Shown: one piece after another, positions 4,541 through 10,442 of the stretch
Position numbering within the stretch: position 1 is the first letter of the stretch
Layout: each line of letters starts with the position of its first letter
From: Vagococcus fluvialis bH819
Lineage (GTDB): Bacteria > Bacillota > Bacilli > Lactobacillales > Vagococcaceae
Assembly: GCF_900163795.1 (NCBI RefSeq)
Contig: NZ_FWFD01000022.1
Location: 1 to 50,011, forward strand
DNA: 50,011 bases
Direction: 5' to 3'
Position numbers and translations under genes: made by a program
The notes under the pieces: generated by a model
Database searches by the model: none
What the model was told of the DNA's origin: nothing
Seen by the model: the letters and a program-made list of their open reading frames with translations, nothing else

Positions 4541-5283
4541 AAAAAATTATCTTATTTTTAGGCTTAAGTTTGATTTTATCGGCTTGTAGTCAACAGGAAG
4601 AAGTTAAAACGAAAGAAACAAGTATGACAAAACAAGAAGCAAAACAAACAGAAACCAAACCATATAAGGAGGAAAAACAAATGACAACATACGTATCAGG
4701 AGATTTAATCAAAGCAGTAGAGGCAAATGATTTAGAGAAGGTAAAAGAAATTGTTCAAGATAAAAACTATGATATTAATGAAGTGAACGAGAAAAAAGAA
4801 TCCCCACTATTGATTGCTACACACAACAATCAAGTGGCGATTGCTAAAGTATTAATCGACTATAAAGCCGATGTGAACCAACAAGACGAGATTCAAGACA
4901 GCCCTTATTTATATGCAGGAGCCCAAGGAAAAACGGAGATTCTCGCTTACATGCTTGAAAATAGCCATCCAGATCAACGGGTGGTCAATCGCTTTGGTGG
5001 GAATGCCTTAATTCCAGCTGCAGAAAAAGGGCATTTGGATAATGTGAAGTTGTTACTAGCGGATGGAAAATCAGATATCGACCATCAAAATAATCCAGGG
5101 TACACAGCGCTAATTGAAGCAGTTGCTTTAAGAGATGGTTCAAAAGTCTATCAAGACATTGTGGCAGAGTTGTTAAAATACGGGGCAGATACAACCCTAA
5201 GAGATACTTACGGTAAAACAGCGGCAGACTATGCCAAAGAATTAGGTTATCAAGAAATGTTGAAAATGTTGGAGAAGAGATAA
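4537..5283 (+). CDS. Ankyrin-repeat lipoprotein
   Basis: 248 residues. A signal peptide with a lipobox (ILFLGLSLILSAC) predicts lipidation and surface tethering at the Cys near residue 17. A charged, Lys/Glu/Thr-rich linker to about residue 50 follows, then four to five ankyrin repeats (DLIKAVEANDLEKVKEIVQD..., SPLLIATHNNQVAIAKVLIDYKADVNQQD, ALIPAAEKGHLDNVKLLLADG, TALIEAVALRDG...). The block NRFGGxALxPxxEKG...GxxALxEAVxL is shared almost residue for residue with the upstream ankyrin/TPR protein. Function is unknown. Extracytoplasmic ankyrin lipoproteins are uncommon but recurrent in enterococci and relatives (recollection). The overlap with the upstream gene and the terminator after it define a two-gene operon. 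Confidence 0.85.
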   Translation: MKKIILFLGLSLILSACSQQEEVKTKETSMTKQEAKQTETKPYKEEKQMTTYVSGDLIKAVEANDLEKVKEIVQDKNYDINEVNEKKESPLLIATHNNQVAIAKVLIDYKADVNQQDEIQDSPYLYAGAQGKTEILAYMLENSHPDQRVVNRFGGNALIPAAEKGHLDNVKLLLADGKSDIDHQNNPGYTALIEAVALRDGSKVYQDIVAELLKYGADTTLRDTYGKTAADYAKELGYQEMLKMLEKR

Positions 5284-5337: not shown

Positions 5338-5401
5338 TTCATGAGTTCAAATCAAGGTGTTCAGGATCTTTTTTTAGTTGTGGAGTTAACTTCGATATAA
5401 T
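5338..5401 (+). promoter_or_regulatory. Pheromone-peptide promoter with LytTR-type direct repeats
   Basis: TTCATGAGTT (5338-5347) and TTCAGGATCT (5360-5369) form imperfect direct repeats 22 bp apart, about two helical turns. That arrangement is typical of binding sites for AgrA/ComE/EntR-type LytTR regulators. A TATAAT -10 lies at 5396-5401 with no good -35, as expected for an activator-dependent promoter. The same TTCATGAG-N10-GGTGTT arrangement recurs at 7682, again about 40 bp before a -10-like hexamer. Confidence 0.55.
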
Positions 5402-5430
5402 TTAAGTATCAAATAACAGAAAGGTTGATG

Positions 5431-5565
5431 ATGATGTTAAATAAGAAAATAGCTGAGAAAGGCTTAAAGAAGATTAATGGAGGGAGTAGTGTACTACAGC
5501 ATGTAACTGAGGCCTATAAAGGTAATGCTGTTCAATGTGTTCTTTCTTTATTTAAAAAATGTTAA
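5431..5565 (+). CDS. Enterocin/carnobacteriocin-type inducing peptide (pheromone) precursor
   Basis: A short ORF of 43-45 codons; three consecutive ATGs at 5428, 5431 and 5434 leave the start uncertain. The AGAAAGG ending at 5424 favours the second or third. The leader MLNKKIAEKGLKKINGG is a classical double-glycine leader (hydrophobic positions, Lys-Ile-Asn-Gly-Gly before the cut). The predicted mature peptide is 26 residues, beginning SSVLQHVTEAYKG and ending CVLSLFKKC. From memory, that end matches CVFSLFKKC(N) of the enterocin A induction factor EntF and CVFSFFKKC of carnobacteriocin CbnS. It is followed immediately by a kinase/regulator pair, as in those systems. Its likely role is a secreted autoinducer sensed by the adjacent kinase. 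A direct bacteriocin activity cannot be excluded. No C39 ABC exporter gene is present in the window. Confidence 0.8.
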   Translation: MMLNKKIAEKGLKKINGGSSVLQHVTEAYKGNAVQCVLSLFKKC

Positions 5566-5600
5566 ACTTTTACCATTTTTTTGATATTCTTAGTTAAAGG

Positions 5601-6914
5601 ATGTGTTTGATAGTGTTGATGGTAGATCTCAAAGCTTTTATTTTATTAACGTTTTATCTGAATATTTTATTGTATGGAATCTTTTATTTCTTTATTGAGA
5701 GAAAAATAAAACTTCCTTTGATTAGTGTGATGCTTATTATTACTTTTTTTGGACAATTAGTTATGGGAAATTGGTTTGATGTATTGATGGTGGGTGTTAT
5801 CTATCTCTATGAAAACTATGTTGTTAAGAGTAAAAATAATTTTATAGTGAATACTTATTTATTTTGTTTGCTAATAATACTTTTTGCTTCTCTAATAGCT
5901 TCTAATATCATGTTACCTTGGCTATCTTTTCAAGGAACAAAAGGGTTTGATTATATTTTTATCAAAATGAGTATTATGAGTATCATTTTGCTTTTCTTAG
6001 TAGTTGCTTACCAAAAATTAAAAGTTACTTCATGGTTGAAAAATAACAATTCCATACTACTAACCATGTTACTGCTATACGTTTATTGTATTACTCTTTT
6101 AGTCGTTGTTATATTAAAAACAATTGAAAAATACAGCTTATATATTAATATCATGTTAGTATTCGTCATACTGCAGACGATGGTGATAACAATTTTATTT
6201 GTTCGAGATCGAAAGAAAAAAGCAGAAGAGTATGAAAATTTACTCTATAAAAACCAACTAGACAGTCTAAAAAATTACACAGAACAACTAGAAGAAGATT
6301 ACCAATCTACCCGGAAATTTAAGCATGATTATAAGAATATGCTACTGAGTTTGAGAATTAATGTGGAGAATCAGAATTACGGTGAATTGACTACTTTCTT
6401 AAACGAACTCGACGATTACTCTGAAAAATATTTTATTAACTCAGCCATGGAAGTTTTCAAAGATTTGACGTACATAAAAGACGGCTATTTAAAAAGTATT
6501 TTTATTAATAAATTACAATTAATGCTGAACAAGGGGATAAAATGTCAGTTTGAATGCCGTGATCTGATTGATAATCCTGTGATTGATTTAGTGGATTTAA
6601 TTAGAATACTGAGTATTTTTTTAGACAACGGTATCGAAGCTTCTTTAGAAACAGAGGAAAAAAGAATGGCCATTGGTTTATCAAAAACGGATGCAGGTCT
6701 GACGATAATTATTGCGAATAGCTATTGTAATAATCAAGAGAGTGTCTCAAAATTAATGGAACAAGGTTACACTTCGAAGGCGAATCATTCAGGCTTAGGA
6801 TTAACCAATGTTCAAGAGATTAAGAATAAATACCCGAATTTATTTATTCAGTACGAAAAAGAAGAGCAGTTATTTACAGTAAAAATAATCATTGATGAAG
6901 GAGTGGCTAGATAA
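5601..6914 (+). CDS. AgrC/EntK-like peptide-sensing histidine kinase (HPK10)
   Basis: 437 residues. The N-terminal 200 residues contain about six or seven hydrophobic segments forming a polytopic sensor domain, as in AgrC, EntK and ComD. A dimerisation helix follows, with H-box KFKHDYKNML (His about residue 242). Then comes a GHKL ATPase domain with N-box FLDNGIEAS and G-box GLGLTNVQEI. The protein should detect the peptide encoded 35 bp upstream and phosphorylate the regulator encoded one base downstream. The start is uncertain: AAAGG directly abuts ATG 5601, so GTG 5613 or ATG 5619 is also possible. The operon order peptide-kinase-regulator is the standard three-component quorum-sensing arrangement. 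Confidence 0.88.
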   Translation: MCLIVLMVDLKAFILLTFYLNILLYGIFYFFIERKIKLPLISVMLIITFFGQLVMGNWFDVLMVGVIYLYENYVVKSKNNFIVNTYLFCLLIILFASLIASNIMLPWLSFQGTKGFDYIFIKMSIMSIILLFLVVAYQKLKVTSWLKNNNSILLTMLLLYVYCITLLVVVILKTIEKYSLYINIMLVFVILQTMVITILFVRDRKKKAEEYENLLYKNQLDSLKNYTEQLEEDYQSTRKFKHDYKNMLLSLRINVENQNYGELTTFLNELDDYSEKYFINSAMEVFKDLTYIKDGYLKSIFINKLQLMLNKGIKCQFECRDLIDNPVIDLVDLIRILSIFLDNGIEASLETEEKRMAIGLSKTDAGLTIIIANSYCNNQESVSKLMEQGYTSKANHSGLGLTNVQEIKNKYPNLFIQYEKEEQLFTVKIIIDEGVAR

Positions 6915-6915
6915 A

Positions 6916-7662
6916 ATGAGTTATCCAATAATAATATGTGAAGACAACCTCACGCAATTGCAGCAAATGAGGACAATCATTGATAACTATATTTTGTTTC
7001 ATGATGAATTGTTTGAAGTGAAAATAGCCACTCAAAGTCCGGACGAATTAATTAAATACATAAAAAAATTCGACATCAATAAAGGCATTTATTTTTTAGA
7101 TATTGATTTAAGTCATCAACTAAATGGTATTGATATTGCTAAAATCATTCGCGGAATAGATGTTGAGGCGAAAATTATTTTTGTGACAACTCATAATGAG
7201 ATGGCACCGATAACCTTTAAAGAAAAAGTTGAAGCTTTGGATTTTATTATGAAAGACCAACCTATTGAGGAGTTGAGGGCAGCTATTTACAGTGCCTTAG
7301 AAGAATCTCAAAAGCGAATCGATTTGATGAATGATGTTAGAAAAAACAATTTCAGTTTTTCAATTAGCTCTCAAACTTATAATTTAGAGTTATCAGAAGT
7401 TGTGTTAATTGAAACATCAACCATTCCCCATCGACTTGATCTGTACAGTAAAAAAGGAAAATATGAATTTTATGGCAATCTGATTGACCTAGAATTAATG
7501 TATCCTAGTTTACTCAGATTGAATCGTTCTTGTCTGGTGAATCCCCAAAACATAAAACAAGTCGATTACTCAAAAAGAAGTGTGTGCTTGCAAGATGATA
7601 TCTTGCGCACCTTTTCTCTCGGCAAAAGCAAAAAAATCAAAGAAGCGATGAAGACTATTTGA
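6916..7662 (+). CDS. AgrA/EntR-like LytTR response regulator
   Basis: 248 residues starting MSYPIIICEDN. The receiver domain has the acidic pair ED (residues 9-10) and phospho-acceptor Asp62 in YFLDIDLS, followed by FVTTHNE and a lysine in IMKDQP. The C-terminal part is a LytTR DNA-binding domain (VVLIETSTIPHRLDLYSKKGKYEFYGNL, LLRLNRSCLVNPQNI). Overall it is close to AgrA and FsrA. AAGGAG (6898-6903) precedes this ATG by 12 nt. Upstream in-frame TTG/ATG codons lie inside the kinase gene and would add residues not seen in the family. It likely activates the boxes at 5338 and 7682 (inference). Confidence 0.9.
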   Translation: MSYPIIICEDNLTQLQQMRTIIDNYILFHDELFEVKIATQSPDELIKYIKKFDINKGIYFLDIDLSHQLNGIDIAKIIRGIDVEAKIIFVTTHNEMAPITFKEKVEALDFIMKDQPIEELRAAIYSALEESQKRIDLMNDVRKNNFSFSISSQTYNLELSEVVLIETSTIPHRLDLYSKKGKYEFYGNLIDLELMYPSLLRLNRSCLVNPQNIKQVDYSKRSVCLQDDILRTFSLGKSKKIKEAMKTI

Positions 7663-7679
7663 ATCTTCATCGTTTTTTT
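7646..7679 (+). terminator. Terminator of the peptide/kinase/regulator operon
   Basis: CGATGAAGA (7646-7654) pairs with TCTTCATCG (7664-7672), followed by seven T. The stem overlaps the last codons of the regulator gene. Confidence 0.85.
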
Positions 7680-7681
7680 GG

Positions 7682-7746
7682 TTCATGAGGTGGAAAAGGG
7701 GTGTTGGAGACAATTAGCGAGATGGCGTGCTAAATAAGGTTATATT
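7682..7746 (+). promoter_or_regulatory. Second pheromone-regulon box and promoter
   Basis: TTCATGAG (7682-7689), 10 nt, then GGTGTT (7700-7705) copies the box upstream of the peptide gene with identical spacing. The second half-site, TTGGAGAC at 7704, lies 22 bp after the first but is less conserved. A TATATT -10 at 7741 is at nearly the same distance as the TATAAT of the peptide promoter. This suggests the next two genes belong to the same regulon. Confidence 0.5.
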
Positions 7747-7775
7747 GTAGGAAACAAAAGGAGTTGAACAACCAA

Positions 7776-8018
7776 ATGAAAGAAGCGAAAACATCAGTTT
7801 TTATAGGGATGCAAGTGATGAATCTATTATTGCTATTGACGGTGTTACTACCAAATGTTTCAACTAATTTTTACCTGTCTGATTGGATGTACGTTGTCTT
7901 AATAGTACTGATGCTAGTTAATGGAAGTTTGTATTTGTGGGTTCGAAGTAAACTAGAAAAGATAGAAGCAGATCGAAATCTTAAAGAAGTGATGAGAATT
8001 ATTGAGGAGTCGATATAG
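7776..8018 (+). CDS. Small membrane protein of unknown function, putative pheromone-regulon member
   Basis: 80 residues with two hydrophobic segments (about residues 7-30 and 36-58). The charged C-terminal tail (RSKLEKIEADRNLKEVMRIIEESI) is probably cytoplasmic. There is no double-glycine leader, so it is not an obvious bacteriocin. The ATG at 7776 is chosen because AAAAGGAG at 7756-7763 would abut the TTG at 7764 but stands 12 nt from this ATG. I do not recognise a family. Its promoter carries the same box as the pheromone gene, so it may be an immunity or accessory protein (inference). Confidence 0.6.
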   Translation: MKEAKTSVFIGMQVMNLLLLLTVLLPNVSTNFYLSDWMYVVLIVLMLVNGSLYLWVRSKLEKIEADRNLKEVMRIIEESI

Positions 8019-8030
8019 GGTGAGAGTATT

Positions 8031-8297
8031 ATGAGTGTGATAAAGAAACGATATGATCTAACCGTATATCAATTACTGCTATTTATTTTTTTCTCGTATT
8101 TATTGACTAACCACTACACAGTAGCAAGCAAAACCTATTTTATGATTGCTATAATTTTCATTACTTATTCATTTATTTTAGAGTCTTTATTAATTAAGTT
8201 GAAGATAAGTGGAAAAAGGAAGTATGCTTGGTGGGGATTTAGTTATTGTCCGCCGATGTTTTTAACGATGGTTGTGTTTATTGTGAGTTGTTATTGA
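8031..8297 (+). CDS. Small three-helix membrane protein of unknown function
   Basis: 88 residues with three predicted membrane segments (about 12-32, 35-55 and 70-88) and a short basic loop (KLKISGKRKYAWWG). GGTGAG at 8019-8024 serves as ribosome-binding site. It starts 12 bp after the preceding small membrane-protein gene and is probably cotranscribed with it. No family is recognised. The position between a pheromone system and an immunity gene makes an immunity or export-accessory role plausible but unproven. Confidence 0.6.
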   Translation: MSVIKKRYDLTVYQLLLFIFFSYLLTNHYTVASKTYFMIAIIFITYSFILESLLIKLKISGKRKYAWWGFSYCPPMFLTMVVFIVSCY

Positions 8298-8411
8298 ATG
8301 TTGTATGGGTTTGTTAAAGAATAAGAAAAAATTTCAAGTACAGCTTCTTTTTTTGCGAAAAATAGAAAAAATGCTACTCTTAAATTGCAGATGAAGTACA
8401 TTTATAGCACA

Positions 8412-8445
8412 AAGTCCCTAAAGAAGTCGGATTCTTCAGGGACTT
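8412..8445 (+). terminator. Terminator-like hairpin
   Basis: AAGTCCCTAAAGAA (8412-8425) pairs with TTCTTCAGGGACTT (8432-8445) with one mismatch and a 6-nt loop. The T-tract after it is weak (GCTTT). It probably closes the two-gene membrane-protein operon. The rest of the 8298-8517 gap holds no convincing gene. Confidence 0.6.
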
Positions 8446-8568
8446 GCTTTATGTGGAAATACCGTCTTAATACGGATTTACTTCTTGTCCAGATGAACTA
8501 AAATGAGGTGAATTAAAATAAACAAAATTAATAGTTATCTTAAAAATAATTTCAGAAAAATATTAAAT

Positions 8569-9135
8569 ATGCTAATTCTATATTTTATTGCTAATTTAAG
8601 TATCAGTTTCTTAGTCAGAATTCCATCAACAAATTGGATGGTTATTCTCCTTTTTTCGGTATTATTTTTATTTTTCAGTTATAGAATTTTAAGGAAAAAT
8701 AAGTATCTTAAAGAAATAACTATCAAAAAATCCTTGTCATTAAATGATGTAGGAATGATTGTAGCTTATAGTATGATTAATTTGATAGTGAGCTATCTTA
8801 CGGCTGCTAGTTCATCAAAAGTCAGAAATGAAGGGGGAACTATAGAATATCATTCTAGTTTTTTATTAATACTAGGAGTGATTATTTTAGCTCCAATATT
8901 AGAAGAAATTGTCTTTAGAGGGTTAATGAGGCAATTAATAGCCAATAAATATTGCTACATAGTAATCAGTTCATTATTGTTTTCAATGATTCACTCTCCG
9001 GAAAATAGCTATCTTTTTATAGGTATTTTTATTAGTGGAGTTCTATTTTCTCTATCATATATTAAAACGAATAACTTAGTGATTCCTATATGTATTCATC
9101 TTATTAACAATTTAACCGCTATTTTTTTGAATTGA
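8569..9135 (+). CDS. CPBP-family intramembrane metalloprotease
   Basis: 188 residues from the first ATG, with several hydrophobic helices. The CPBP/Abi signature is complete: EEIVFRGLMRQL (Glu-Glu-x-x-x-Arg), FSMIHSPEN and the C-terminal HLINN. CPBP proteins are membrane proteases or scaffolds. They often serve as bacteriocin self-immunity (PlnI-like) and in staphylococci take part in Agr peptide signalling (MroQ). The frame continues upstream to 8512, and a good AGGTG (8506-8510) sits 7 nt before an ATA at 8518. The extension NKINSYLKNNFRKILN looks like a natural N-terminus. The true start may therefore be ATA, or a mutated ATG, giving 205 residues. Confidence 0.82.
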   Translation: MLILYFIANLSISFLVRIPSTNWMVILLFSVLFLFFSYRILRKNKYLKEITIKKSLSLNDVGMIVAYSMINLIVSYLTAASSSKVRNEGGTIEYHSSFLLILGVIILAPILEEIVFRGLMRQLIANKYCYIVISSLLFSMIHSPENSYLFIGIFISGVLFSLSYIKTNNLVIPICIHLINNLTAIFLN

Positions 9136-9242
9136 TATGAAGTTGAAGATCTATAAATAGCTATTTCAAGATGTTTTAATCTTGTAAAACCTGAAAGATG
9201 ATATCTTATTATTACTTAATCAGTGAATGCGAGGGCAAAATA

Positions 9243-9551
9243 ATGGGCGGACTAAATTGGTTTACAAACGACAATAATCGTATGGAACAAGCACTGTTTC
9301 TTATTGTAGAACTGTTAATTGATGTGAATCATAGCCAAGAAAATGAAGCGTTAAAATCAATCTTAATGGAGTATAAAGAAGTATTGGCTAATTCAAATTC
9401 TTCAGAAATTTTTATTTTGAACCAAATGACCAATGATATTTCAATGGCTATAGAAAAAGATAATGTGTCGTTGTCGGAATATCAAACCCAAAAAATGAGA
9501 CATTTAATAAGGATATCAAAAACTAAAGGTGTTTCTTTTGTTGAGAAATAA
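9243..9551 (+). CDS. Enterocin A-type bacteriocin immunity protein
   Basis: 102 residues, MGGLNWFTNDNNR..., mostly amphipathic helices with no membrane segment. The C-terminal block VSLSEYQTQKMRHLIRISKT resembles, from memory, the same region of the enterocin A immunity protein (FTEYQEELIRNLSEIGRTAGI). It fits the class II immunity four-helix bundle that binds the mannose-PTS receptor complex from the cytoplasm. GAGGG (9231-9235), 7 nt upstream, selects this ATG over the one at 9198. No cognate bacteriocin gene is adjacent, so it may be an orphan protecting against a related strain's product. A strong bidirectional terminator follows. Confidence 0.78.
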   Translation: MGGLNWFTNDNNRMEQALFLIVELLIDVNHSQENEALKSILMEYKEVLANSNSSEIFILNQMTNDISMAIEKDNVSLSEYQTQKMRHLIRISKTKGVSFVEK

Positions 9552-9595
9552 CCCATCAGACAACACTAATTACTTAGTTTATCTGATGGGTTATT
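9547..9595. terminator. Bidirectional terminator between convergent genes
   Basis: AATAACCCATCAGA (9547-9560) pairs perfectly with TCTGATGGGTTATT (9582-9595), with a T-run after it on the plus strand. A smaller hairpin (CTAAT/TTAGT region) lies in the loop. The minus-strand gene 9566-9814 ends inside it. Confidence 0.85.
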
Positions 9596-9814
9596 TTTAA
9601 TTTTTTTTATCAATTTCCTGAAATATGGATAAGCGAACCAAGTCAAATAAATAGTCGAAATTCCAATAATCGTATGAAGAATAAAACTATCAATAAACTG
9701 GATAACAAAATCATTAATGATATCACCAATGATAAATCCAGCTACGGTAACTAAGGCGATGGTACTTTGTTTTTCATTAGATAACCATGCTTGGAGACTG
9801 TGTTTCTGTTTCAT
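9566..9814 (-). CDS. Small membrane protein of unknown function
   Basis: 82 residues with two predicted membrane helices (about 17-40 and 43-63) and a basic C-terminus (RKLIKKIKNN). AGGAGG, 8 nt before the ATG, supports translation. It follows the next minus-strand gene by only 15 bp and is probably cotranscribed with it. No family is recognised. Confidence 0.6.
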   Translation of the reverse strand: MKQKHSLQAWLSNEKQSTIALVTVAGFIIGDIINDFVIQFIDSFILHTIIGISTIYLTWFAYPYFRKLIKKIKNNPSDKLSN

Positions 9815-9829
9815 ATTTTAGCCTCCTTT

Positions 9830-10144
9830 TCACTTGATAACGGTATAGTGTTTGGAAAATTTTTTACTAGAAATTAATAGATGATTGGTCGCATCTAAAA
9901 AATCTCCTTCATATCCCATGGCGTACATACCGTAGCCACCACAGTTTCCAATCACTGTCACAACTGTTCCTGTTTTTAAGTTGTGAAGGATGGACGGATT
10001 TAATGCGGCCATTAAAATACGGAGACGATTATCTGACCAATATAGGTAATTCTTTTTAAAAGCTTCTTTCACCCAGTCAGGTTGCTCCCCTGTTCGACTA
10101 ATTTCCCAAACATCAACGACTTTATTTTTGTATGTTGCTTTCAT
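9830..10144 (-). CDS. Conserved hypothetical protein, 104 aa
   Basis: A soluble protein with sequence MKATYKNKVVDVWEISRTG...VIGNCGGYGMYAMGYEGDFLDATNHLLISSKKF. The dense aromatic and glycine pattern suggests a small beta-rich fold. It resembles hypothetical proteins I recall near prophage or accessory genes in enterococci, but I cannot name a family. AGAGGTGA lies 8 nt before the ATG. It leads a two-gene minus-strand operon. Confidence 0.6.
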   Translation of the reverse strand: MKATYKNKVVDVWEISRTGEQPDWVKEAFKKNYLYWSDNRLRILMAALNPSILHNLKTGTVVTVIGNCGGYGMYAMGYEGDFLDATNHLLISSKKFSKHYTVIK

Positions 10145-10160
10145 GAGACAATCACCTCTT

Positions 10161-10442
10161 ATTATTTTGTTGCTTTATTGTAATAGGAAATAGTGAGATT
10201 TGGTAAAGAATATCATGAAGTGTGGGAAAAGAGGTCATGAGTGAAGTAGAAGAGTCCAACGTATTTAATTAATGACATTCTAAAAATGATGAACATGATT
10301 ATATCAACGATTCCAGTGTATTCTGGTTTTATTTTATAGAATAAAATATTGTCAAATTATTTTTAGGCATAAAACAAAACCACAATAGCTTATAAACGTT
10401 GTTATAGAAGGAATTAGAGACTAGGGGAACTACAAAAATAAA
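10161..10442. other. Non-coding interval between convergent/divergent units
   Basis: An AT-rich gap of about 280 bp upstream of the 10144 gene. It contains a 7-bp perfect dyad, ATTTTAT-AGA-ATAAAAT (10331-10347). The only frames are very short (11 and 17 codons, at about 10237 and 10287) and not convincing. I see nothing else in it. Confidence 0.5.

Follow-up and report, generated by a model that had tools for sequence, protein, structure and literature searches.

What does a bacteriocin-type quorum-sensing locus control in a genome with no recognised bacteriocin and no detectable exporter for its pheromone? This question is raised by a locus of Vagococcus fluvialis bH819 (2.95-Mb genome, searched as G000), which we analysed within a 50,011-nucleotide stretch of DNA, hereafter the window. 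An earlier note on the window had listed a peptide, a kinase, a regulator, two small ORFs, a CPBP protein and an immunity gene, and each of these lies where the note had placed it.

The three-component system and its conservation

The note had read the first three genes as an EntF/CbnS-type three-component system, and our searches bear this out. The EntF-family induction-factor precursor (5428..5565, plus strand), whose mature part ends in QCVLSLFKKC, scored 40.6 bits against the NCBIfam EntF model NF033383 in a curated model search (cut-off, 35) and 24.6 against Pfam DUF5841, slightly below the cut-off of 25. The EntF family is defined by a double-glycine (GG) leader and a pair of tail cysteines, and this peptide, with a mature part of 26 residues, has both. 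A search of plasmid records with the peptide gave a single weak match (E 0.02). The next gene encodes an intact AgrC/CbnK-type GHKL sensor kinase (5601..6914, plus strand) with six hydrophobic segments by hydropathy, a GHKL domain (PF14501, 59.3 bits; Pfam cut-off, 22) and all of the H, N and G boxes. It is followed by an intact AgrA/CbnR-type LytTR response regulator (6916..7662, plus strand) with the phospho-acceptor Asp62, in which Pfam models matched a receiver domain (PF00072, 47.9 bits; cut-off, 30.2) and a LytTR domain (PF04397, 46.3 bits; cut-off, 22.6).

A second species, represented by a one-contig genome (G005), keeps the locus. Its peptide gene is intact and the peptide is 74% identical to that of the host, with a canonical GG leader in both and a tail of 16 residues that is invariant between them; selection on the peptide gene was not significant (p 0.07). 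Comparison of the two species showed that purifying selection acts on the kinase (dN/dS 0.23, p 2.6e-8), the regulator (1 nonsynonymous and 16 synonymous changes, p 3e-11) and several of the predicted output genes described below. Synonymous divergence was 0.10-0.14 in the kinase, regulator, 84-aa and immunity genes and 0.16-0.47 in the five flanking genes compared. This lower divergence suggests that the kinase-regulator-84-aa-immunity core may have been exchanged between the species after they split.

Operator repeats and predicted output genes

The LytTR regulator is predicted to bind direct repeats with a 22-bp period. The operator TTCATGA-N15-TTCAGGA precedes the peptide gene (5338..5366, plus strand), exactly matches the pattern seen in other families and is kept in G005. 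Candidate operators were scored with a matrix built from other loci only (i.e., with the host's own locus left out), and this site was the best in the window, at 15.6 compared with a maximum of 14.3 over six simulated 50-kb sequences. An operator with the same period before a divergent operon (10213..10241, minus strand) has one mismatch in the host and is exact in G005, and the footprint conserved between the two species starts at this repeat; by the matrix alone it scored 8.4, fourth in the window and inside the range of the simulated sequences, with two unrelated sites above it. The operator-like repeat before the immunity gene (9143..9171, plus strand; one mismatch) scored just 1.9; its second half is kept in G005, as is the promoter region that follows. 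A repeat before the first small membrane protein gene (7682..7710, plus strand; two mismatches) is identical letter for letter in G005, but the whole surrounding stretch is conserved, and this repeat is weak when taken alone. The operator test is thus clear at 5338, backed by pattern and by conservation in G005 at 10241, and weak at 9143 and 7682. The locus has 3 intergenic operator-like sites with at most one mismatch within 4.9 kb, where the site density of the genome predicts 0.07; this interval was picked after the sites had been seen. The published CbnR promoters carry two 10-bp repeats 12 bp apart, according to the available excerpt of PMC1634752, and thus have the same 22-bp period as the operators of this locus.

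The earlier note had suggested that the regulon might act on distant genes. This found little support. Genome-wide, the two-repeat pattern with at most one mismatch occurs at 45 sites, against 24 for the reversed pattern. Thirty of the 45 were examined: 19 fall inside ORFs of at least 100 aa (a count that covered ORFs complete within the 3-kb locus), and of the remaining 11, three belong to the peptide-kinase-regulator locus itself. The longer box proposed in the note gave 24 sites against 11 for a control pattern, and the 3-kb surroundings of its two best distant sites contained no bacteriocin-like operon.

The likely output of the system comprises an immunity protein of the piscicolin-126/mundticin type together with a CPBP protein, small membrane proteins and two genes that form a divergent operon; the regulon likely reaches past 9551, to the divergent pair at 9566-10144. 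The note had offered two small membrane proteins as a possible output. This was drawn too narrowly, because the class IIa-type immunity gene, the CPBP gene and the divergent operon appear to belong to the same set. One of the two is a small two-helix membrane protein (7776..8018, plus strand; 80/84 aa) and the other a putative hydrophobic 88-aa ORF (8031..8297, plus strand) defined by ORF calling and hydropathy; neither has a Pfam or NCBIfam match over cut-off. The 80/84-aa gene has a dN/dS of 0.17 against G005 (p 0.009, ORF taken from 7764), and no relative of its product was found in plasmid records. The 88-aa ORF is absent from G005, which has a different 48-aa ORF in its place. A candidate Fst toxin gene at 8346-8488 was rejected, as the match stops at the boundary of the toxin gene as annotated and we saw no frame resembling a toxin; Rfam found nothing at gathering scores over the window.

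The CPBP (CAAX/Abi) membrane protease family protein (8569..9135, plus strand; PF02517, 72.2 bits; cut-off, 22.4) is encoded by a gene with a dN/dS of 0.28 against G005 (p 9e-5). The pediocin-like (class IIa) immunity gene (9243..9551, plus strand) more likely starts at 9243 than at 9198, judging by ribosome site and relatives, which gives a protein of 102 aa. This protein matched PF08951 (EntA_Immun) with 30.1 bits (cut-off, 22.1), and its best solved relatives are the immunity proteins of piscicolin 126 (2k19, 2.2e-16) and mundticin KS (2zrr, 1.6e-14); selection between host and G005 was not significant (p 0.11). The divergent operon encodes a 104-aa protein with no Pfam family (9830..10144, minus strand) and, as its second gene, an 82-aa small membrane protein (9566..9814, minus strand), both genes having a dN/dS of 0.14 against G005 (p 2e-4 and 2e-5, respectively). 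The 104-aa product is probably an immunity-type protein: relatives occur in 122 plasmid records, and relatives adjoin class II bacteriocin genes on plasmids; of five contexts read, three show the relative immediately following small bacteriocin-like ORFs. No relative was found in viral contigs, and a single-sequence AlphaFold model was uninformative (mean pLDDT 40.6). In G217 and G241, which have nearly identical loci, a partial homologue (43%) of the 82-aa protein lies ~350 bases away from the EntF peptide; in plasmid records the 82-aa protein had one weak match.

Exporter and bacteriocin searches across the Lactobacillales

GG leaders are substrates of C39 exporters. The note had reported no exporter between 5.3 and 10.1 kb, and this absence extends to the whole host genome, in which no C39 domain was detectable; the same search was positive in 8 of 14 control genomes, and full-length exporters were found elsewhere. 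C39 was likewise not detected in G005. The missing bacteriocin was also confirmed genome-wide for two families, PF10439 and PF01721, with no member in G000, G005, G020, G058 or G254. Genome-wide bacteriocin searches covered these two families and one leader model (TIGR01847), which returned nothing over cut-off from the host but missed the known pheromone too and so carries little weight. In the window, a leave-one-locus-out GG-leader matrix, which took the place of a first crude pattern that had missed the pheromone, found the pheromone alone and no structural bacteriocin; it found zero GG peptides in simulated sequence, and it misses the pheromones of G020, G058 and G273 and one of the two bacteriocin-like ORFs in G009.

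An EntF-like peptide was found in 18 of 395 genomes of the order Lactobacillales, and C39 is absent from six of these 18, which span four families. On the kinase tree the C39-less state requires five changes, at least three of them forced by well-supported branches. Kinase and regulator are stop-free in all six genomes, with the H-box histidine and the phospho-acceptor Asp kept. The pheromones of G254 and G058, both among the six, have lost the two cysteines, and the G058 frame also appears broken; in both genomes kinase and regulator are open, with similarly sized membrane proteins beside them and immunity-type genes within 10 kb. The exporter gene that adjoins the regulator in G009 stops after 48 codons, at an ORF that resembles a transposase and that we take to be one. 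The presence of a bacteriocin family was not significantly related to the exporter (5/9 against 2/9, p 0.33). Split by bit score and exporter, the 13 over-cut-off peptides fall 6/0 and 0/7 (p 0.0006), a division drawn post hoc and suggestive at most.

A receiver-only reading, its rivals and known systems

We consider that the locus is probably, though far from certainly, a receiver-only EntF/CbnS-type quorum system controlling bacteriocin self-protection. EntF-like peptide would come from bacteriocin-producing neighbours, and perhaps also from kin that keep the exporter. The membrane kinase would sense this foreign peptide and phosphorylate the LytTR regulator at Asp62, and the phosphorylated regulator would bind the direct repeats and activate the operon of peptide, kinase and regulator, one or more small membrane proteins, the immunity gene of class IIa type and the divergent pair of immunity-type genes, with CPBP perhaps co-transcribed. 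A cell near a producer would arm several kinds of bacteriocin protection and bear no weapon cost. We infer both the sensing of foreign peptide and the protection from sequence. In favour of this reading are the missing C39 in host and G005, the lack of recognised bacteriocins in the searches described above, the purifying selection, the operator-like sites with their CbnR-type period, the kinship of the immunity protein with those of piscicolin 126 and mundticin KS, and the recurrence of C39-less genomes with open kinase and regulator, two of them with a damaged pheromone. Several observations speak against a receiver-only system: the peptide gene is intact in host and G005, which a pure listener would not need; the operators of the immunity and 84-aa genes are weak, and two unrelated sites score above that of the divergent operon; selection on the peptide and immunity genes is not significant; the core may have been exchanged between the species; and bacteriocin families show no significant relation to the exporter.

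The intact peptide, with its invariant tail and canonical leader in two species, would fit a self-signalling immunity regulon, in which the peptide is still exported and trimmed by a transporter outside the C39 type (for example, a peptide exporter with housekeeping duties, or leader cleavage by the CPBP protease); the strain would then respond to its own density and arm immunity while making no bacteriocin. The sensor half of the kinase is more diverged than the kinase half (24 nonsynonymous changes at 487 sites against 8 at 564, p 0.001; dN/dS 0.30 against 0.14), as expected if receptor and signal co-diversify, and the CPBP protein is weakly similar to MroQ (37.7 bits, far below the cut-off of the NCBIfam model). 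We nevertheless regard self-signalling as unlikely, because GG leaders are C39 substrates and the genome yielded no C39, and because the damaged pheromones of two other C39-less genomes argue against a general alternative exporter. Moreover, the substitute exporter of pneumococcus, ComAB, is itself a GG-peptide exporter according to excerpts of PMC5295010 and PMC4739721, and none such was found here.

The damaged pheromones of G254 and G058, together with the truncated exporter of G009 and the lack of significant constraint on the peptide and immunity genes, could instead point to decay, with the host locus the eroding remnant of a former bacteriocin locus from which both bacteriocin and exporter have gone. 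Yet erosion seems rather improbable: comparison of the two species shows open frames and clear purifying selection for the kinase, regulator, CPBP, 82-aa and 104-aa genes, and promoter stretches have also been preserved. We give very little credence to an effector role, in which the peptide or the small membrane proteins would themselves act as an undescribed antimicrobial, leaderless or directed at membranes, under quorum control. The 80/84-aa and 88-aa proteins do lack a family over cut-off, and the former is under selection, but the small proteins have no GG leader, neighbouring genes look immunity-type, and similarly sized membrane proteins adjoin kinase and regulator in the C39-less G058 and G254. 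The peptide falls in a family of characterised inducers, and its doubling as effector, which the earlier note had offered, is not favoured. As a whole, the interpretation in that note is partly supported.

It is possible, although we lean slightly against it, that receiver-only EntF-type systems form a recurrent and evolutionarily stable class, in which exporter and weapon were lost independently in several lineages of lactic acid bacteria; these would have kept receptor, regulator and immunity genes, overhear the producers of other species via the conserved pheromone tail and so gain inducible multi-class bacteriocin resistance. If the receiver-only reading is true, bacteriocin resistance in some lactic acid bacteria would be switched on by an overheard producer signal rather than be constitutive, which would bear on the possible failure of bacteriocin treatments in mixed communities. 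The locus would also be a natural exporter-free test case for cheating and eavesdropping theory, cleaner than pneumococcal Blp with ComAB, and the 104-aa and 82-aa families near bacteriocin genes would be suggested as immunity-type.

CbnS-CbnK-CbnR and EntF-EntK-EntR, as far as the excerpted descriptions go, share with this locus the peptide family, the order peptide-kinase-regulator, a LytTR regulator with Asp62 and two direct repeats of 22-bp period. Those systems drive bacteriocin structural genes, whereas no recognised bacteriocin was found in the host genome; likewise, the exporter-bearing relatives read have the three-component system near a C39 exporter, and no C39 was found in the host. 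The immunity proteins of piscicolin 126 and mundticin KS belong to the same sequence family as that of the host, whose gene differs in having no cognate bacteriocin gene beside it and a weak CbnR-type repeat upstream. In pneumococcus, blpA-disrupted 'cheaters' have lost the exporter but kept the receptor; they react to pheromone from a neighbour and produce immunity proteins (PMC4739721, in excerpt), and ComAB can export BlpC (PMC5295010 and PMC4739721, in excerpt). Here, too, no C39 exporter was found and the receptor gene is kept, with kinase and regulator under purifying selection. In contrast, the cheaters described in that excerpt keep bacteriocin genes and ComAB, whereas the host has no C39 that we could find anywhere and every output recognised in it is of immunity type; the signal peptides belong to different families, and the exporter-less state of the host is common to two species.

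Composition of the locus and the missing exporter

The source genome (2.95 Mb in 22 contigs, scored 100% complete; the window is contig C4 in full) carries at 5428-5562 a peptide gene that scores 40.6 bits against a curated EntF induction-factor model (cut-off 35). The kinase (5601..6914), regulator (6916..7662), CPBP (8569..9135) and immunity (9243..9551) genes all exceeded their Pfam cut-offs. The earlier note had called the immunity protein enterocin A-type, which holds at the Pfam level; however, when the protein was compared with solved structures from its better start at 9243, its nearer kin were the immunity proteins of piscicolin 126 (2.2e-16) and mundticin KS (1.6e-14), with marginal likeness to that of enterocin A (0.34). 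A second PF08951 immunity gene in this genome (C21:33802-34014) scores higher than the locus copy. Within the locus, 143 bases (8346-8488) are ~83% identical to a V. fluvialis plasmid stretch that stops where a type I toxin gene of the Fst family starts or ends. The window's copy shows no toxin-like frame and does not align with the locus of the sister species (G005); it could be a remnant or a related RNA element. The final part of a large, repeat-rich LPXTG surface protein with Cna-B-like repeats lies ~4 kb upstream of the locus (141-1442) and directly before the locus in G005 (L033 89-6967).

A search of the whole genome found no C39 peptidase domain. There was also no match to PF10439 or PF01721, the two bacteriocin families covered genome-wide in a draft assembly from which plasmids may be missing. 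With the locus under test withheld from its construction, a GG-leader matrix found one double-glycine peptide in the 50-kb window, the pheromone itself; the matrix had no match in five simulated 16-kb sequences and is not fully sensitive, having missed the pheromones of three genomes (G020, G058 and G273). The absence of a structural bacteriocin and exporter, previously noted for the locus, thus extends to the genome as far as searched. C39 occurs in two of the 14 genomes of the genus, as a full-length frame in G010 and a 59-aa frame in G009. In G009 (L034 9827-11144) the fragment lies directly behind an EntF-type regulator, and the exporter gene ends after 48 codons at a transposase-like ORF, presumably a transposase. 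The G009 sequence may thus have caught exporter loss in the act; two GG-leader bacteriocin-like ORFs are still present upstream. Twelve of the 14 genomes have PF08951 immunity genes, and ten of these twelve lack any C39.

Conservation in a sister species

G005 (one contig, 3.05 Mb) carries the peptide, kinase, regulator, 84-aa, CPBP and immunity genes and the divergent pair in identical order, and a genome search found no C39 there. Between the two species (p values from Fisher tests), the regulator had 1 nonsynonymous and 16 synonymous differences (dN/dS 0.014, p 3e-11), and constraint was also significant for the kinase (0.23, p 2.6e-8), CPBP (0.28, p 9e-5), 82-aa (0.14, p 2e-5), 104-aa (0.14, p 2e-4) and 84-aa (0.17, p 0.009) genes. 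No significant constraint was found for the peptide gene (0.47, p 0.07) or the immunity gene (0.45, p 0.11, taking the ORF that starts at 9198). Nonsynonymous changes were more numerous in the sensor half of the kinase than in its kinase half (p 0.001). These comparisons are most simply read as showing a signalling chain maintained in working order, though the exporter is missing in both species. Synonymous divergence was 0.16-0.47 for the five flanking genes compared and 0.17-0.38 for the peptide, CPBP and divergent pair. It was lower, 0.10-0.14, in a core formed by the kinase, regulator, 84-aa and immunity genes; this core may therefore have been exchanged at some time since the two species separated, though not very recently.

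Operators and the divergent pair

The pattern TTCANGA-N15-TTCANGA precedes peptide and bacteriocin operons in other EntF loci, and it matches the published layout of CbnR promoters, described as a pair of imperfect 10-bp repeats separated by 12 bp (PMC1634752). Scored with a matrix derived from other loci, the site at 5338, an exact pattern match, ranked first in the window (15.6; best scores in six simulated 50-kb sequences, 8.5-14.3). The site at 10241 (minus strand) scored 8.4, a value inside the simulated range; it ranked fourth in the window, with two unrelated sites above it. Its G005 counterpart is exact and top-ranked within its 20-kb stretch, where the G005 peptide site ranks third. 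Of the remaining sites, that at 9143 scored weakly (1.9), that at 7682 has two mismatches to the pattern, and one more, at 4892, falls within a coding frame. All four promoters contain stretches conserved between the species, and at the divergent operon conservation starts at the repeat. Intergenic sites with at most one mismatch numbered three in 4.9 kb, an interval chosen after the sites were seen, against 0.07 expected from the genome's own density. Elsewhere in the genome, operator-like sites were not far above a control pattern.

The divergent operon encodes an 82-aa protein (9566..9814, minus), a partial homologue of which adjoins the EntF peptide of G217 and G241, and a 104-aa protein (9830..10144, minus) that matches no Pfam family and lacks a convincing relative among solved structures. 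Relatives of the 104-aa protein occur in 122 plasmid records. A bacteriocin-like ORF lies directly upstream in three of the five plasmid contexts read. In pVPRE25b it is a bacteriocin with a GG leader and in Lactococcus SK11 plasmid 3 one with a ComC/BlpC leader; the pSDGJQ5 ORF is unnamed, has a mature part that is related, and shows no GG leader in the annotated frame. In Leuconostoc carnosum the relative follows an annotated bacteriocin immunity gene, and in Ligilactobacillus salivarius a cluster containing Blp-family bacteriocins and an AbpIP induction peptide is nearby. This context suggests an immunity role, making the family a candidate new immunity family. The family, represented in the window at 9830-10144, is found in plasmid loci L094, L095 and L096 directly behind small bacteriocin-like ORFs ending in a PYGxGGTPN-type motif.

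Recurrence and interpretation

EntF-like peptides were found in 18 of 395 Lactobacillales genomes (E<=1e-3; 13 over the cut-off). A C39 frame at least 700 aa long is present in nine of the 18, in G109 away from the EntF-like gene; in three the only C39 frames are fragmentary or short (G009, 59 aa; G053, 322; G366, 213 and 296); and six, from four families, have none (G000, the window's genome, with G005, G020, G058, G254 and G273). On the kinase tree, which is partly unsure owing to long branches, the exporterless state requires five changes, at least three forced by well-supported branches, and clusters no more than shuffled labels. In all 18 genomes the aligned kinase and regulator sequences, several comprising only the tblastn-aligned stretch, contain no stops and keep the H-box histidine and phospho-acceptor Asp. 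G109 is represented by a second copy nearby, as the regulator beside the matched peptide is truncated to 52 aa; this locus (L087 4914-10030) holds two inverted GG-peptide/kinase/regulator sets, whose pheromone-like peptides share a leader and differ in their mature parts.

A GG peptide resembling a bacteriocin is encoded close to the EntF gene in 7/8 exporter genomes versus 1/6 C39-less genomes (G273; p 0.026), a test in which G217 and G241 are nearly one locus, the G394 peptide is on the exporter contig, and the partial genomes G009 (yes), G366 (yes) and G053 (no) and G109 (unlinked exporter, other GG peptides present) are omitted. The pheromones of G254 and G058 have tyrosines at both cysteine positions, and that of G058 has no start codon in frame with its GG part. 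Both genomes keep genes of immunity type within 10 kb: G254 encodes a relative of the window's immunity protein (29% identical, 3e-14), and G058 has a 104-aa homologue and a CPBP relative together with small membrane proteins. Small proteins of 41-66 aa, most of them membrane-like, form arrays beside the EntF-type kinase and regulator in G058 (L086 4356-7460) and G366 (L078 3625-6477), and a G058 bacteriocin-like ORF has GE in place of the GG of its G366 relative.

The overall pattern, in which reception and immunity persist, export and weapon have been lost, and the pheromone is damaged in some lineages, fits a receiver-only switch that would sense a peptide and arm immunity. The main point against it is that the pheromone is intact in V. 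fluvialis and G005, which keeps alive the alternative that the peptide is still exported by a non-C39 transporter for self-signalling.

Among the matches listed, titles and abstract openings in the open-access literature described no EntF/CbnS-type system without exporter and bacteriocin. Non-producing Lactobacillus sakei strains reportedly carry homologues of the sakacin P cluster, so the general idea of non-producers retaining regulatory and immunity genes is probably already known. A precedent for a receiver-only immunity switch is the pneumococcal blp 'cheater', described as responding to a neighbour's BlpC and making immunity proteins without functional BlpA (PMC4739721). Because no C39 exporter was found in its genome, the V. 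fluvialis case is cleaner than the pneumococcal one.
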